Assembly (NCBI GenBank): GCA_012512925.1 | Contig: JAAZDE010000072.1 | Span: forward strand, 1-33,419 | Origin: Desulfuromonadaceae bacterium | Lineage (GTDB): Bacteria > Desulfobacterota > Desulfuromonadia > Desulfuromonadales > JAAYDE01 | Length of the DNA: 33,419 nucleotides | Direction of reading: 5' to 3' | In this document: positions 5,948-14,247 of the stretch, one piece after another | Position numbering within the stretch: the first letter of the stretch is position 1 | Layout of the letters: each line of letters opens with the position of its first letter | Made by a program: the position numbers and the translations under genes | Notes under the pieces: model-generated | The model's input: the letters and a program-made list of their open reading frames with translations, nothing else | What the model was told of the DNA's origin: nothing | The model's database searches: none

Positions 5948-7693
5948 CTACTCGTCCTGTTCCTTGTTAGCTTTTTCCATCGCGCCCTGGAGAAGAACAC
6001 CGAGGTTGGAGGTGGCATTGTTCTGGGAGCCGAGAAAGGACTCAACGTTGGCTTTCTCCTTGCGGTCTTCCAGGTGCTTGATCGACAGGGCGATCTTGCG
6101 TTCCCCGGTGTCGACGTTGAGGACGACTGCTTCCAGTTCGTTGCCGACCTCGGTAAAACCTTTGGGAGAATCCAGTTTTTCCTTGCTGATCTCGGAAACG
6201 TGGATCAACCCTTCGATCCCTTCTTCGATCTCGAGGAAAATACCGAAATCGGTGACCGAAGTCACTTTGCCGCGCAGTACGGTCCCCGGCCGATAGCGGG
6301 TGGGGATGGTGCTCCAGGGATCGGGAGTAAGATGTTTGATGCTGAGGGAGAAGCGCTCGTTTTCGCGGTCGATATTGAGAACCACGGCCTTGACCATGTC
6401 CCCCTTCTTGTACATTTCCGAAGGATGTTTGACCCGTTTCGTCCAGGAGATATCGGAGATATGGACCAGACCGTCGATACCCTCCTCGACGCCGACGAAG
6501 AGACCAAAATCGGTGATGTTTTTGACCTGTCCCTCGATGATCGTTCCGGGAGGGAACTTCTCGCCGATGACATCCCAGGGATTCGGCTCGATCTGCTTGA
6601 GTCCCAGGGAAATGCGCCGGTTGGGGATATCCAGGGCAAGAACCAGGGCTTCCACTTCTTCGCCGAGATTTAGGATCTTGCTGGGGTTCTTGACTCGCTT
6701 GGTCCAACTCATCTCAGAAACATGGATCAGCCCCTCGACTCCTTCTTCCAGTTCGATGAAGGCGCCGTAATCAGTCAGGCTGACAACCTTGCCATGAACC
6801 CGCTGGCCGACCTGGTACTTGTTTTCCACTTCCGCCCAAGGATCGGGAATCAACTGTTTGAGCCCAAGGGATACGCGTTCTTTCTCCCGGTCGTATTTGA
6901 GTACCTTGACTTGGATCTTGTCTCCCACGGAAAGACGCTCCGAGGGATGGTTGACCCGTCCCCAGGAAATATCGGTGATGTGGAGCAGGCCGTCAATGCC
7001 ACCCAGATCGATAAACGCCCCGTAGTCGGTGAGATTTTTGACGACGCCGTCCATGACCTGCCCTTCGGCGAGCGCATGGAGGGTGTCCTTGCGCAACCGA
7101 TCCCGTTGTTCTTCCAGCAGGGTACGACGGGACAGAACAATATTCCCACGCCGCTTGTTGAGCTTGATGATCTTGAATTCCAGAGTCTGACCAAGCAGTT
7201 TGTCCAGATTGCGCACCGGCCGCAGGTCAACCTGTGAGCCGGGAAGGAAGGCGTTGACCCCTATATCGACGGAGAGCCCGCCCTTGACCCGGGCCAGGAT
7301 CCGTCCTTCGGTGGTCATCCCCTCTTCCAGGGAACTCCAGATTTTCTGCCGGTCGGCCTTGGTCTTGGACAGGCTGATCAGGCCATTCTCATTCTCGGTG
7401 CTTTCGATGAAGACATCGAACTGATCCCCAACCTGGATGGCCTGGGCCATATTCCCATGTTCATCCTTGAACTCATGAATCGGTATCAGTCCTTCGGATT
7501 TCCCGCCCACATCAACCACAAGAGAATCCTCATTGACCTGGACGATGGTGCCTTTGACAACGTTGCCGGGAACCAATTCCTTAAGGCTGTTTTCAAAGAG
7601 ATCGGCGAAGCTTTCCTCCATTTCGCCGCTCTCGGCATCATAAACATCCATCATTTCTTCTTCGTCGTTGAACTGCTTTTTTTTATCAACCAT
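5948..7693 (-). CDS. rpsA: 30S ribosomal protein S1
   Basis: Ribosomal protein S1, 581 residues, which binds mRNA leaders and helps load them on the 30S subunit. Six S1 (OB-fold) domains follow one another from about residue 42 to 555. The four C-terminal ones carry clear repeats of V.NLTDYGAF..L.G.DGL.H.SDISW, as in six-domain Proteobacterial S1. The N-terminus is acidic (FNDEEEMMDVYDAESGEMEE). The start at 7693 (MVDKKKQ) has GAGGGGG about 10 bases upstream; the frame is open 29 codons further but that part holds hairpins and no family similarity. It lies 102 bases after ispH, in line with the frequent ispH-rpsA pairing. Confidence 0.97.
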   Translation of the reverse strand: MVDKKKQFNDEEEMMDVYDAESGEMEESFADLFENSLKELVPGNVVKGTIVQVNEDSLVVDVGGKSEGLIPIHEFKDEHGNMAQAIQVGDQFDVFIESTENENGLISLSKTKADRQKIWSSLEEGMTTEGRILARVKGGLSVDIGVNAFLPGSQVDLRPVRNLDKLLGQTLEFKIIKLNKRRGNIVLSRRTLLEEQRDRLRKDTLHALAEGQVMDGVVKNLTDYGAFIDLGGIDGLLHITDISWGRVNHPSERLSVGDKIQVKVLKYDREKERVSLGLKQLIPDPWAEVENKYQVGQRVHGKVVSLTDYGAFIELEEGVEGLIHVSEMSWTKRVKNPSKILNLGEEVEALVLALDIPNRRISLGLKQIEPNPWDVIGEKFPPGTIIEGQVKNITDFGLFVGVEEGIDGLVHISDISWTKRVKHPSEMYKKGDMVKAVVLNIDRENERFSLSIKHLTPDPWSTIPTRYRPGTVLRGKVTSVTDFGIFLEIEEGIEGLIHVSEISKEKLDSPKGFTEVGNELEAVVLNVDTGERKIALSIKHLEDRKEKANVESFLGSQNNATSNLGVLLQGAMEKANKEQDE

Positions 7694-9392: not shown

Positions 9393-10697
9393 TCAATGCC
9401 CCTCAAACCCCGCCAAACGTCCCAACAGCACCCAGAAGCCGGGGAAAGAGGTTGCCGTACAGGCGATATCCTCGACCTCCACCGGTGACAAGGCGCGCAG
9501 ACCGGCCACCGCCATACTCATGGCGATGCGGTGATCCCCGTGGGAAAGGACCTTGCCCCCTTGCAGCCGCTCCCGGCCGGTGATGACCATGCCGTCCGGC
9601 CGAGCCTCGACCTCCCCTCCCAGTTTGGTCAACTCCGAGGTCATGGAGGCAATGCGGTCGGTCTCCTTGACCCGCAGTTCCTGGGCGTCGCGGACCACGG
9701 AGGTCCCTTCGGCCAGAGCCGCCGCCACGGTAAAAACCGGAATTTCGTCGATCATCCGGGGAATCAGGGAACCACCGATCTCGATCCCCTTGAGACGGCT
9801 GCCGCGAACCAGGATATCGGCCACCGGTTCCCCGGCCGCCAGCCGCTCATCGACCAGTTCCAGATCGCCCCCCATGCGCCTCAGAGCCTCAATGATGCCA
9901 TCTCGGGTCGGATTGACACCGACATTGCGGATCAGCAGCTCCGAATGGGGCACGATAAGGGCGGCCACCATGAAAAAGGCCGCCGAGGAGATATCCCCGG
10001 GAACGGTCACCTCACAGCCATGAAGCCGCGGCCTGCCGGTCAAGGCCACCCCTCCCGCCACGGGATGCAGGTCGGCACCAAAGAAAGGCAGCATCCGCTC
10101 AGTGTGATCGCGGGAGAGGCACGGTTCGCGGACGGTGGTCACCCCGTCGCAGTAAAGCCCCGCCAGCAACAGCGCCGACTTGACCTGGGCGCTGGCGATG
10201 GGGGAATCGTAGCTGATGGGACGCAGTCGACCGCCGTGAATAGCGAGGGGCGGCAGATCTCCTTGCGAACGCCCCCAGATGCGCGCCCCCATTTCGCTCA
10301 GCGGTTTCACAACCCGTTTCATGGGGCGTTTGCGTAAATACTGATCGCCGGTCAGCACCGAAAAGAAGGGCTGGCCCGCCAGCAGGCCGCTAAGCAGGCG
10401 GATGGTGGTGCCGGAGTTGCCGCAGTCGAGAACGTCCTCGGGCTCCTTCAGCCCATCGAGACCCCGTCCTTGGATCCGGAGAAGGTTGTCCCCCTTCTCT
10501 TCAATAGGCACCCCCATGCGACGGAAAGCTTCGACGGTCCTGTAGTTATCCTCGCCGCAGAGGAAGTTGCGCACATACGAGGATCCCTCGGCCAGGGAGG
10601 AAAAGATCACCGCCCGGTGGGAAACCGATTTATCCCCCGGAATAGTGACCTCCCCCCGCAGGCCGCCCCTGGCCGGATCGATTTCACAGCGGTTCAT
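9393..10697 (-). CDS. aroA: 3-phosphoshikimate 1-carboxyvinyltransferase (EPSP synthase)
   Basis: Sixth step of the shikimate pathway: joins phosphoenolpyruvate to shikimate 3-phosphate. The 434 residues show the S3P-binding GDKSVSHRA at 21-29 with Lys23 and the PEP-site block LDCGNSGTTIRLLSGLL. The catalytic IPRMIDEIPV and the C-terminal KETDRI and GDHRIAMS blocks are also present. This is the usual two-lobed enzyme. AAGGAG precedes the ATG. It overlaps the end of tyrA by 4 bases (ATGA), which indicates tight translational coupling. The block around residue 93 (CGNSGTT) resembles the class I/II common motif; herbicide class cannot be decided by eye. Confidence 0.97.
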   Translation of the reverse strand: MNRCEIDPARGGLRGEVTIPGDKSVSHRAVIFSSLAEGSSYVRNFLCGEDNYRTVEAFRRMGVPIEEKGDNLLRIQGRGLDGLKEPEDVLDCGNSGTTIRLLSGLLAGQPFFSVLTGDQYLRKRPMKRVVKPLSEMGARIWGRSQGDLPPLAIHGGRLRPISYDSPIASAQVKSALLLAGLYCDGVTTVREPCLSRDHTERMLPFFGADLHPVAGGVALTGRPRLHGCEVTVPGDISSAAFFMVAALIVPHSELLIRNVGVNPTRDGIIEALRRMGGDLELVDERLAAGEPVADILVRGSRLKGIEIGGSLIPRMIDEIPVFTVAAALAEGTSVVRDAQELRVKETDRIASMTSELTKLGGEVEARPDGMVITGRERLQGGKVLSHGDHRIAMSMAVAGLRALSPVEVEDIACTATSFPGFWVLLGRLAGFEGH

Positions 10698-11578
10698 GGA
10701 CTCTCCTTCTGTTTGACAATCGCGTCGCGGCTCGCCTTGGAACGGACGAAAAAATCCTGCAGCCGTTCGCCGTCACCGGCGGCGATATCCGCTTTCAATT
10801 CAACGAAAAAAGTTTCGAAGCAGGCCATCATCTCCAGCAGCGCCTCCCGGTTGGTCAGGGCGATGTCGCGCCACATGACCGGATCGCTCGAGGCGATGCG
10901 GGTAAAATCCCGAAAGCCGCCGGCGGAATATTCGAGGATGTTTTCCTGAAAACGTTCGCAGGAACTGACGGCGTTGACCAGGGCGTAGGCGACCATGTGA
11001 GGCAGATGGCTGATGGCCGCCAGCACCCGGTCGTGGCGCTCCACATCCATCAGCACCACCCGGCTGCCGGCCAGTTCCCACAGCCGCGTCACCAGCACCA
11101 GCGCCTGGGGATCGGTGCGGGAAGTAGGAGTGAGGATGCAGTTGCGATCCCTGAAAAGGGTGGCGAAGGCCGCCGCCGCGCCGCTCTTTTCGGTACCGGC
11201 GATGGGGTGCCCCGGAACCAGATGGACATGGGGGGGAAGCAAGGGTTCCAACTGCCGGACCACCTCAGCCTTGACGCTGCCGGCATCGGTGAGTACGACC
11301 CCGTTCTTGAGATGAGGGAGAATGACTTCGGTGACCCGCCGCATGGTCAACACCGGCGTGGCGAGAAAGACCAGGTCGGCGTCCTTCACCCCGGCCGCGG
11401 CATCGTCGGTCACGGAATCGGCGATGCCCAGTTCGAGAGCCGCGTCGAGATTGGCGCGGCTGCGGCCGATGCCCACCACGTCCTTTACCGCCCCGGCTTT
11501 TTTAAGGGCCAGAGCGAAGGAGCCGCCGATGAGACCGACACCGATAACGGCAAGTTTTCCAACCAACGGTTGCGTCAT
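10694..11578 (-). CDS. tyrA: Prephenate dehydrogenase
   Basis: Oxidative decarboxylation of prephenate (or arogenate) towards tyrosine. The 294 residues have the N-terminal dinucleotide fold GVGLIGGS at 13-20 and VFLATPV, followed by GHPIAGTEKSG, the catalytic-His region SHLPHMVAYAL and the C-terminal GGFRDFTRIASSDPVMW block. No chorismate mutase or ACT domain is fused, so this is the stand-alone bacterial type. The ribosome site before the ATG at 11578 is weak (CGGAT). It follows pheA after 194 bases that hold the heptad arrays, so its expression could be partly independent of pheA. NAD or NADP preference cannot be told. Confidence 0.94.
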   Translation of the reverse strand: MTQPLVGKLAVIGVGLIGGSFALALKKAGAVKDVVGIGRSRANLDAALELGIADSVTDDAAAGVKDADLVFLATPVLTMRRVTEVILPHLKNGVVLTDAGSVKAEVVRQLEPLLPPHVHLVPGHPIAGTEKSGAAAAFATLFRDRNCILTPTSRTDPQALVLVTRLWELAGSRVVLMDVERHDRVLAAISHLPHMVAYALVNAVSSCERFQENILEYSAGGFRDFTRIASSDPVMWRDIALTNREALLEMMACFETFFVELKADIAAGDGERLQDFFVRSKASRDAIVKQKESP

Positions 11579-11661
11579 ATCCGAAAAACCATGTAAACCT
11601 TTCAGCCCAAAGTATGAGGTACCCCGAAATCTTGATTGGTGGGGATGGCTCCCGGCACTTT

Positions 11662-11689
11662 GTGACTAGTGACTGGTGATTGGTAACTG
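11662..11689 (+). repeat. Heptad repeat array, plus orientation (4 units)
   Basis: Four consecutive 7-base units on the plus strand: GTGACTA, GTGACTG, GTGATTG, GTAACTG, followed by GT. They face a longer array of the same repeat on the other strand at 11719-11760, with a 29-base A-rich spacer. A 17-base part (11675-11691) pairs with 11724-11740 with only one G-T pair, so the two arrays can form a long hairpin. Confidence 0.8.
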
Positions 11690-11718
11690 GTTAAAATCAA
11701 AACCAAAATTCCATCTGC

Positions 11719-11760
11719 CAGACACCGGTTACCAATCACCAACAACCAGTCAACGGTTAC
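11719..11760 (-). repeat. Heptad repeat array, minus orientation (6 units)
   Basis: Six consecutive 7-base units on the minus strand, read from 11760 downward: GTAACCG, TTGACTG, GTTGTTG, GTGATTG, GTAACCG, GTGTCTG. The consensus is about GTNACTG, the same as in the facing array. It ends 12 bases after the pheA stop codon. Such arrays do not code for protein; function is unknown. Confidence 0.75.
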
Positions 11761-11772
11761 CTGCCGCCGGCC

Positions 11773-12861
11773 TCACTCCTGGCGCAGGGTAATGGTGCGG
11801 GGATAGGAGCCGAGAACCTTGACGAACTGGCAGTGGCTGCGCAGTTCTTCCACCGCGGCGGCGATTTCCGGTTGCGAGAGATGTCCTTCCAGGTCGAGGA
11901 AAAAGACATACTCCCAGGCCTTCTTTTTGATCGGCCGACTCTCGATCTTGGTCAGATTGATGTTGCGCTTGCGGAACGGTTCCAGCATCCGGCAGAGGAT
12001 GCCGGGAGCGTCGCGGACGCTAAACATCAGGGAGGTTTTGTCATGGCTGCTCGGCTGCGGAGAAGTTCGGGCAATGACCAGAAATCGGGTGAAGTTGTTG
12101 GGGTTGTCCTCGATCTTGCGCTGCACCACCCGCAGGCCGTAGAGGGTGGCGGCCATCTCGCTGGCCAGAGCGGCACAGTCGCCATCCTCCATGGCCATCT
12201 CGGCAGCGCGGGCGGTGCTGGAAACATCCACCTGAGGGACCTCGGGAAGGTTCTCCTCCAGCCAGTTGCGGCATTGGGCCAAGGCATGGGGATGGGAGAC
12301 GACCTTCCTGACATCCTCCATCCGCCCCGACAGGGAGAGCAGACTCTGGGTGACCTCGAGGAGGATCTCGGCATAGATCTTCAGCTCCGAGTCGAGAAAC
12401 ATATCGAGGGTATGGGAGACAATCCCCTCGTTGGAATTCTCCACCGGCACCACGCCATAATCGGCCCTTGCCCGGTTCACTTCGTCGAAGACCGCGGGGA
12501 TGCTTTTGGCGGGGACGAAACGGGCCGACAGCCCGAACTGGCGGATGGCGGCTTCCTGGGTGAAGGTCGCCTTCGGTCCCAGATAGGCGACGCTGAGAGG
12601 CTGTTCCAGGGAAAGGGAAGCGGAGATGATCTCCCGGTAAACGCTGCGGATGGCGCTGGAAGGAAAAGGGCCGGGATTGTTGGCCGCCAGGCGGTCGTAG
12701 ATGGCCCGTTCCCGGCTGGGCACGAAAAAGGGGAGCCCGTTGGCCGCCTTGAGACGGCCGACCTCGATCACCAGCGCAGAGCGCCGGTTGAGCAGTTCCA
12801 GGATCTGATCATCAATGGCGTCGATTTTTTGCCGGAGGTTGTCGAGCTTCCGATCGTCCAA
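11773..12861 (-). CDS. pheA: Chorismate mutase / prephenate dehydratase (P-protein)
   Basis: Bifunctional enzyme making phenylpyruvate from chorismate by way of prephenate. Domain order, numbered from the upstream ATG at 12867: AroQ chorismate mutase (about 5-85, with IDAIDDQILELLNRR), prephenate dehydratase (about 92-270, with VENSNEGIV and the catalytic NNFTRF at 257-262), then an ACT domain (about 278-360) with ESRP at 309-312, the phenylalanine-sensing motif, so feedback inhibition is likely. AGGAG lies directly against the ATG at 12867 but 6 bases before the TTG at 12861, so TTG is the better start (MDDRKLDNL). It is the first gene of the long minus-strand chain, with its promoter at 12905-12932. 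Confidence 0.95.
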   Translation of the reverse strand: MDDRKLDNLRQKIDAIDDQILELLNRRSALVIEVGRLKAANGLPFFVPSRERAIYDRLAANNPGPFPSSAIRSVYREIISASLSLEQPLSVAYLGPKATFTQEAAIRQFGLSARFVPAKSIPAVFDEVNRARADYGVVPVENSNEGIVSHTLDMFLDSELKIYAEILLEVTQSLLSLSGRMEDVRKVVSHPHALAQCRNWLEENLPEVPQVDVSSTARAAEMAMEDGDCAALASEMAATLYGLRVVQRKIEDNPNNFTRFLVIARTSPQPSSHDKTSLMFSVRDAPGILCRMLEPFRKRNINLTKIESRPIKKKAWEYVFFLDLEGHLSQPEIAAAVEELRSHCQFVKVLGSYPRTITLRQE

Positions 12862-12904
12862 TATCATCTCCTCTGGTCAACGGAACGGGTTGGTAAAGAA
12901 ATTC

Positions 12905-12932
12905 AATATAACAGAGGCGGAAAAATGGACAA
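12905..12932 (-). promoter_or_regulatory. Sigma-70-type promoter of pheA and the downstream chain
   Basis: On the minus strand TTGTCC (12927-12932) and TATATT (12905-12910) are 16 bases apart. The transcript would begin near 12898, about 37 bases before the start of pheA. Confidence 0.55.
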
Positions 12933-12964
12933 AGAGCAATTTTACCACGTCACCAAAAGTCTCC

Positions 12965-12993
12965 TTGACCCTCAGGAAAGGGATGTTTACACT
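12965..12993 (+). promoter_or_regulatory. Sigma-70-type promoter of the aminotransferase gene
   Basis: TTGACC (12965-12970) and TACACT (12988-12993) are separated by exactly 17 bases. Transcription would start near 13000, about 54 bases before the ATG at 13054. It lies back to back with the pheA promoter and supports the short start of the aminotransferase. Confidence 0.6.
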
Positions 12994-13053
12994 TTTTCGT
13001 CACTCGTCAATTGTCACAAGATGTCAATGGGGCACACCAAGGAGAAGAGAGAA

Positions 13054-14247
13054 ATGGCCATCGCCGATAAAATCAGCGCCTGTCTGGAAAAAGCCTCCTG
13101 GATCCGCAGGATGTTCGAGCAGGGAAACGCCCTGCGCAAAATTCATGGAGATGGAAACGTCTTCGATTTCACCCTCGGGAACCCGGCGGTGGAACCGCCG
13201 GAAGCCTTCCGCCGGGAGTTGCTGGAGTTGGCCCAAAATCCCCTCCCCGGCATGCACCGCTACATGAGCAACGCCGGCTATGAAGAAACCCGCCGGGCCG
13301 TCGCCGAACTTCTTTCCAAAACCGCTCCCCAAAAAGTCGAAGCCGGCCATATCGTCATGACCTGCGGCGCCGGAGGGGCGCTCAACGTGGTTTTAAAAAC
13401 CATCCTCAACCCCGGTGAAGAGGTCATTATCCTCAATCCTTTCTTCGTCGAATACAAATTTTACATCGACAACCACGGCGGCGTGCCCCGTGAGGTCTCC
13501 ACCGATCCGGAAACCTTCCTCCCCGATCCTGAAGCCATCGAAAAAGCGATCGGCGCCAACACGCGGGCCATTATCCTCAACTCCCCCAACAACCCCACCG
13601 GGGTCATCTATTCCGCGGCGGACCTGGAGAGGATCGGCCAGGTTCTCGACCGCAAGGGGCGCGAACTGGACCGCACCCTCTACCTCATCTCCGACGAGCC
13701 CTACGCCCGCATCGTCTACGATGGCGGCACCATTCCAAATGTTTTCAACCATGTCCGCAATGCGGTGATCGTCACCTCCCACTCCAAGGATCTGGCCCTG
13801 CCCGGCGAACGGATCGGCTACCTGGCCGCCAACCCGGCCATGGCAGAGGTCGAGCGGTTCATGGAGGGGGCCATCTTCTGCAACCGCATCCTCGGCTTCG
13901 TCAACGCCCCGGCCCTGATGCAGCGTCTGGTGACCGGCCTCCAGCGAGAATCGGTGGATATCGCCGCCTACCAGCGCAAGCGTGACATCCTCTACGGCCA
14001 CCTCACCTCTTTAGGCTTCCGCATGGTCAAGCCGGGAGGCGCCTTTTATCTCTTTCCCCGCTCGCCGCTGGCCGACGACGTGGAATTTGTCCGCCTCGCT
14101 CTCAAGCATCTGATCCTGGTGGTCCCCGGCGCCGGCTTCGGCATGCCGGGATTCTTCCGCATCGCCTACTGCATGGAACAGGAGATGATCGAACGCAGTC
14201 TGCCGGCTTGGGAGAACTTGGCGGGGGAACTTGATCTCAAAGGATGA
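13054..14247 (+). CDS. Class I/II pyridoxal-phosphate aminotransferase
   Basis: A 397-residue fold-type I aminotransferase. Visible motifs are the N-terminal FTLGNPAVEPP (39-49), NSPNNPTG (176-183) with the cofactor-contacting Asn180, SDEPY (213-217) with Asp214 and Tyr217, and the Schiff-base Lys245 in SHSKDLALPGERIGY. FFRIAYC near the end holds the substrate-carboxylate Arg. The frame stays open far upstream, but GGAG lies 9 bases before this ATG, the family begins near here, and promoters for this gene and for pheA occupy the upstream part. Placement opposite pheA-tyrA suggests transamination of aromatic keto acids, but aspartate or other substrates are equally possible from sequence. It converges with recJ, only 21 bases away. 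Confidence 0.9.
   Translation: MAIADKISACLEKASWIRRMFEQGNALRKIHGDGNVFDFTLGNPAVEPPEAFRRELLELAQNPLPGMHRYMSNAGYEETRRAVAELLSKTAPQKVEAGHIVMTCGAGGALNVVLKTILNPGEEVIILNPFFVEYKFYIDNHGGVPREVSTDPETFLPDPEAIEKAIGANTRAIILNSPNNPTGVIYSAADLERIGQVLDRKGRELDRTLYLISDEPYARIVYDGGTIPNVFNHVRNAVIVTSHSKDLALPGERIGYLAANPAMAEVERFMEGAIFCNRILGFVNAPALMQRLVTGLQRESVDIAAYQRKRDILYGHLTSLGFRMVKPGGAFYLFPRSPLADDVEFVRLALKHLILVVPGAGFGMPGFFRIAYCMEQEMIERSLPAWENLAGELDLKG

Follow-up and report, generated by a model that had tools for sequence, protein, structure and literature searches.

The hairpin between pheA and tyrA in this Desulfuromonadaceae genome is probably one copy of a dispersed intergenic element, in which degenerate arrays of the heptad GTRAYTG face each other around a short A-rich loop. 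Such an element would grow by slippage, arrive at a site as a unit and be tolerated between genes. It is present in many copies in this genome, it lies between genes, its arrays are biased towards facing each other, and the pheA–tyrA site is empty of it in relatives.

Anatomy of the hairpin and its surroundings

The window, i.e., the whole stretch of 33,419 nucleotides that was analysed, holds the following features at this locus (strands are those of the window):

11662–11689, plus strand: array of four heptads, GTGACTA, GTGACTG, GTGATTG and GTAACTG (read from the sequence; TRF, period 7, 4.3 copies)
11690–11718, no strand: A-rich spacer (loop) of 29 nt, gttaaaatcaaaaccaaaattccatctgc (read from the sequence)
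11719–11760, minus strand: array of six degenerate heptads, GTAACCG, TTGACTG, GTTGTTG, GTGATTG, GTAACCG and GTGTCTG, given from outside to inside (11760 down to 11719; read from the sequence)
11674–11741, no strand: core hairpin, in which 11674–11691 pairs with 11724–11741 over 18 pairs, one of them G-T on the plus strand (helix search and folds)
11579–11772, minus strand: pheA–tyrA intercistronic gap of 194 nt, larger than in 30 relatives (gap comparison)
11773–12867, minus strand: pheA, chorismate mutase–prephenate dehydratase–ACT (Pfam PF01817, PF00800 and PF01842), with its stop 12 nt before the hairpin
10694–11578, minus strand: tyrA, prephenate dehydrogenase (Pfam PF02153 and PF20463), with its start 83 nt after the hairpin

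A sequence-only reading of this DNA had described four plus-strand heptads facing six minus-strand heptads over a 29-base A-rich spacer, and its coordinates were exact. The unit is degenerate (consensus GTRAYTG), and the 7-base phase, which that reading held to be kept throughout, withstood randomization: the period-7 self-match of the 194-nt gap was equalled in 4 of 5000 dinucleotide-preserving shuffles, with all periods from 4 to 12 considered. At this locus TRF reported the plus array and not the minus array. The 17-base pairing proposed across the arrays is real and amounts to 18 pairs, the longest unbroken helix; 300 shuffles averaged 9.1 pairs and reached 15 at most. Its single G-T pair, on the other hand, belongs to the plus strand only; the minus strand, which is the sense strand of pheA and tyrA, has a C-A mismatch there. 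The predicted RNA folds reach −49.2 kcal/mol on the minus strand (z −3.3) and −46.2 kcal/mol on the plus strand (z −5.5), and the suggestion of a folding element is backed by these predictions together with the facing layout.

Relative to GTGACTG, 101 of 131 heptad changes are C:G to T:A transitions at positions 3, 5 and 7. G runs in the GTRAYTG arrays are of two at most, so that the arrays carry no quadruplex-capable G-tracts. A sigma-70-like match (9/12) lies inside the plus array (window 11669–11697, plus strand), antisense to the operon, and is probably a side effect of the spacer being A-rich.

After tyrA, Pfam identifies aroA, cmk, ispH and an S1 protein gene. An open frame of 804 aa runs antisense to pheA and beyond it (window 11833–14247, plus strand); the hexamer-based gene caller favoured this frame over pheA, and Pfam backs pheA.

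There is no T-tract 3′ of the stem on the gene strand, where the minus-strand sequence past the hairpin is CAAAGTGCCGGGAG. The hairpin does not have the make-up of an intrinsic terminator, i.e., a stem and then a T-tract on the gene strand. The terminator scan returned a short stem at 11751–11769 as its sole terminator-like match, at chance level, in agreement with the earlier view that no terminator explains the arrays. Rfam 15 gave no match above the gathering score anywhere in the window.

Distribution in the genome, in relatives and in distant bacteria

The genome is a draft of 2.6 Mb in 213 contigs. That the arrays could be a dispersed repeat had been guessed from the locus itself and was borne out here: BLAST of the segment against the genome gave 82 matches, and, when up to two mismatches were allowed, three units matched 182 times, against 10 for the reversed control. 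Our census of elements covered 503 kb of contigs, picked mostly for carrying matches and annotated with home-made gene calls. It yielded 33 elements, all 33 intergenic, in sequence that is about 86% coding by the hexamer-based gene call. Close array pairs in the sampled contigs, with gaps of 14–29 nt, were facing in 10 cases (one of them a near-copy on an overlapping contig end), direct in 3 and diverging in none, and shuffled sequence contained no close pairs. Folds of 12 element regions (13 folds) were all stabler than their shuffles, with z from −2.2 to −11.9.

The copies also have sequence outside the heptads in common. The first 13 bases of the spacer, GTTAAAATCAAAA, recur on the loop side after several other arrays of the genome, and ACTGGTTARAATCAAAA with up to two mismatches matched 16 times, against once for the reversed control. 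An outer border, AAAAGCR, precedes part of the arrays, and the same border is seen in three families of the order. Some arrays of the genome have no facing mate. The unit-by-unit match of the two arms in own-genome copies was not above that of shuffled units (p 0.31), and there is therefore no sign in this genome of the pairing itself being maintained.

Elements lie within 15 nt of a stop codon in 11 of 30 cases, where 6.6 are expected (p 0.037, home-made gene calls), and some copies overlap stop codons. By translation, the forward strand of GTGACTG stops all frames, so that a forward array fits only at or after a gene end; this may account for the overlapping copies.

Other heptad dialects were observed in composite arrays of the same genome, namely GTGGCTC/GTAGCTC, GTGACGA and AAACTTA/AAACCTA. 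All have period 7 and they are often joined by TAAAAAGC (L092:12229–12417; L093:344–573 and 6479–6723; L094:2868–3089; L096:18726–18828). At L088:1–92 and L102:195–286, the gene end, terminator and first heptads are 100% identical and the two sequences then diverge inside the array, either because strains vary here or because the assembly forked at the repeat.

The pheA–tyrA gap measures 194 nt here; it is 34 nt in a genome of the same genus and does not exceed 109 nt in any of 29 further relatives. The GTRAYTG repeat is found in the gap of none of these 30 relatives with a measurable gap, and the hairpin is probably a recent gain at this site. At a second element (L100), the whole hairpin is absent from the same-genus genome, where the flanking genes align up to the gap. 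The same-genus comparison covered these two orthologous sites, and neither empty site shows a clear target duplication. Across the order, three-unit arrays occur in 27 of 136 genomes, with rich and empty genomes within one genus; the same-genus genome carries a different dialect, GTCATTG. Two genomes of another family, G010 and G030, hold heptads of the GAATTCT or TTTTGAATT type in the pheA–tyrA gap (L141 and L151), facing each other in G030 (L151), so the gap seems open to heptad sequences of any unit.

Facing GTGACTG pairs, sought in 84,980 species genomes, turned up in 42 stretches, distributed over Desulfuromonadales, Betaproteobacteria, Bacteroidota, Caldilineaceae (Chloroflexota), Verrucomicrobia and others; longest ORFs, being unreliable in GC-rich DNA, were not used to assign gene context to the far loci. 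One orthologous facing hairpin is present in five Burkholderiales-type genomes (L238:1132; L253:3442; L258:5127; L249:2810; L247:7770), with arm lengths that differ by 7- and 14-nt indels. These indels are the best evidence that arms change by whole units, and the five genomes show that heptad hairpins can outlast speciation. Over 42 facing pairs from other genomes, the arm-to-arm unit match was 0.910; swapping arms between loci lowered it to 0.870. This difference carries little weight because the search pattern fixes one unit per arm and several loci are orthologous.

When tandem arrays and inverted mates were sought blind to sequence, the own-genome sample, which is selection-biased, had all 8 of its inverted pairs at period 7. 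Unbiased 400-kb samples scanned over periods 4–12 had most arrays at period 7 in G006 (9) and G022 (15), with none in G043; inverted pairs numbered one at period 7 (G006) and one at period 9 (G022). The period-9 pair of G022, at L300:18134–18244, consists of inverted tandem arrays of the 9-bp unit CACGAAGGA. Phylum-wide scans with strict patterns found 5 facing and no diverging pairs, all from the genome analysed here, because the draw consisted mostly of other classes.

Origin and possible roles

We hypothesize that slipped-strand mispairing, seven bases at a time, lengthens and shortens the arms. The hairpin would have reached the pheA–tyrA gap as a unit, after the split from the nearest sequenced relative, and may persist by virtue of lying between genes and leaving both reading frames whole. 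The common loop sequence and the AAAAGCR border hint that the copies may descend from one another. Pure slippage does not explain these shared parts, which count against our reading, as do the arrays that lack a facing mate and the own-genome arms that match no better than shuffled units.

An alternative is a non-autonomous mobile element (MITE- or REPIN-like), recognised and copied by a transposase in trans, to which the heptad arms would be secondary. In its favour, the inner border is conserved and AAAAGCR partly so in three families; however, a typical MITE is far less variable in length and unit sequence than these copies are. Whole hairpins are present or absent at pheA–tyrA and at L100, as mobility would have it, but neither empty site carries a clear target duplication. 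The patchy distribution across phyla also suits such an element. On the enzyme side, the roughly 1.5 kb to each side of the genome's single Y1 transposase contain no heptad array, and Y1 genes, the type tested, were found in 22 of 22 genomes, whether array-rich or array-poor. We regard a mobile element of this kind as rather unlikely.

Less probable still, in our judgment, is that selection maintains a regulatory RNA or a protein-binding element at the pheA–tyrA junction, as an attenuator, a processing site or a binding array that sets tyrA expression. The sequence-only reading had raised an action on the aromatic operon, for which the predicted hairpin, strong and 12 nt past the stop of pheA, would speak, and this part of it found no backing. 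The junction lacks the repeat in 30 relatives, including one of the same genus, the same element stands beside many other genes, and its copy number shifts between species. Nor is there a T-tract, a terminator above chance or an Rfam family at the site. In principle, a protein could bind repeatedly along a period-7 array, but a 7-bp phase does not place binding sites on one face of B-DNA, which counts against a protein-binding array.

Chance local duplication unrelated to other sequences is practically excluded: the site is indeed not conserved in relatives, one of the two observations that had been said to point to chance, but the other, absence elsewhere in the genome, is contradicted by dozens of copies with the same unit and facing layout, and shuffles do not produce the pattern. 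Support was found neither for an element dedicated to the aromatic operon nor for a chance duplication.

For the dispersed element that we favour, an effect of the hairpin on pheA or tyrA expression is possible, whereas a dedicated regulatory role in the aromatic operon is unlikely. If there is any effect at the locus, the likeliest would be REP-like, with an RNA hairpin after the pheA stop altering mRNA decay, processing or pheA–tyrA translational coupling. We give this a minor chance; otherwise, the hairpin is neutral. The case advises caution in the aromatic operon, since a hairpin may stand out between biosynthesis genes without being a regulatory device.

More tentatively, heptad hairpins could form a general bacterial class that conserves its 7-base phase and facing layout rather than its sequence, and that is made and spread by one shared process, either step-7 hairpin-aided slippage or a hairpin-copying enzyme; we hold this to be doubtful as yet. 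Candidate dialects of such a class would be GTRAYTG, GTGGCTC/GTGACGA, GTTTYAR and GAATTCT (in the order Desulfuromonadales), GGGAATC (in Xanthomonas) and the Nostoc intron stems. With one heptad facing in Desulfuromonadales, Betaproteobacteria, Bacteroidota, Chloroflexota and Verrucomicrobia, origin and spread become testable via sister strains.

Relation to known heptad repeats and hairpins

REP/REPIN sequences, associated with RAYT transposases, are short dispersed intergenic hairpins that often lie after genes. To our knowledge REPs have no heptad periodicity, and, unlike REP/REPIN with RAYT, no Y1 transposase gene is flanked by the repeat here. A literature search by the letters of the repeat returned no paper on the GTRAYTG unit.

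The heptameric GGGAATC repeats of Xanthomonas have a degenerate 7-bp unit, often in about four units; they are 89–93% intergenic, lie close to the preceding gene's stop codon or overlap it, form 70–75 convergent inverted pairs per genome and accompany random gene classes (Rehm et al. 2015, PMC4692102). The GTRAYTG element likewise is a tandem 7-bp unit in many intergenic copies with close convergent inverted pairs. Adjacency to a stop codon, as in Xanthomonas, holds for the pheA copy (12 nt) and is at most a weak tendency among the sampled elements (11 of 30, p 0.037). In contrast to the Xanthomonas sites, 83% of which are kept between two species (PMC4692102), the GTRAYTG site at pheA–tyrA is absent from the same-genus genome, and the A-rich loop common to GTRAYTG copies is a further difference. 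Nostoc/Anabaena heptamers are GGGGA(C/T)T repeats (Rehm et al. 2015, PMC4692102). Unlike the Xanthomonas and Nostoc units, where G-tracts of three or more are used for quadruplexes, GTRAYTG has none. We treat such G-tracts as a property of the published units and not of the heptamer kind. A unit family without G-tracts is thereby added to the heptameric intergenic repeats, and a G-quadruplex therefore cannot be the general reason for period 7 and the facing layout.

The class of intergenic heptameric simple sequence repeats takes in the repeats of Rehm et al. 2015 and the long SSRs of Mrazek, as cited in PMC4679880. TAACTGA direct repeats are known from Beggiatoaceae, cyanobacteria and Bacteroidetes (MacGregor 2015, PMC4679880); they are intergenic and patchy over distant phyla, have no known spreading mechanism and lie directly ahead of start codons (one case is inverted), and every frame of their forward strand meets a stop within 18 nt. 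Rotated, TAACTGA becomes ATAACTG, one base from the GTAACTG variant seen here. The GTRAYTG element differs in its unit, in its facing pairs and in not being placed at start codons (83 nt before tyrA). In the P6b region of the Nostoc tRNA-Leu(UAA) intron, a stem has two complementary 7-nt repeat motifs as its arms, with varying repeat number and with different unit classes yielding the same structure (PMC4476775 and works cited there). Those stems have a fixed place in a group I intron, whereas GTRAYTG copies are free and intergenic. Taken together, we read the GTRAYTG hairpins as a new family of a known kind, nearest to the Xanthomonas GGGAATC heptamers, with the TAACTGA repeats and the Nostoc tRNA-Leu intron stems next closest.
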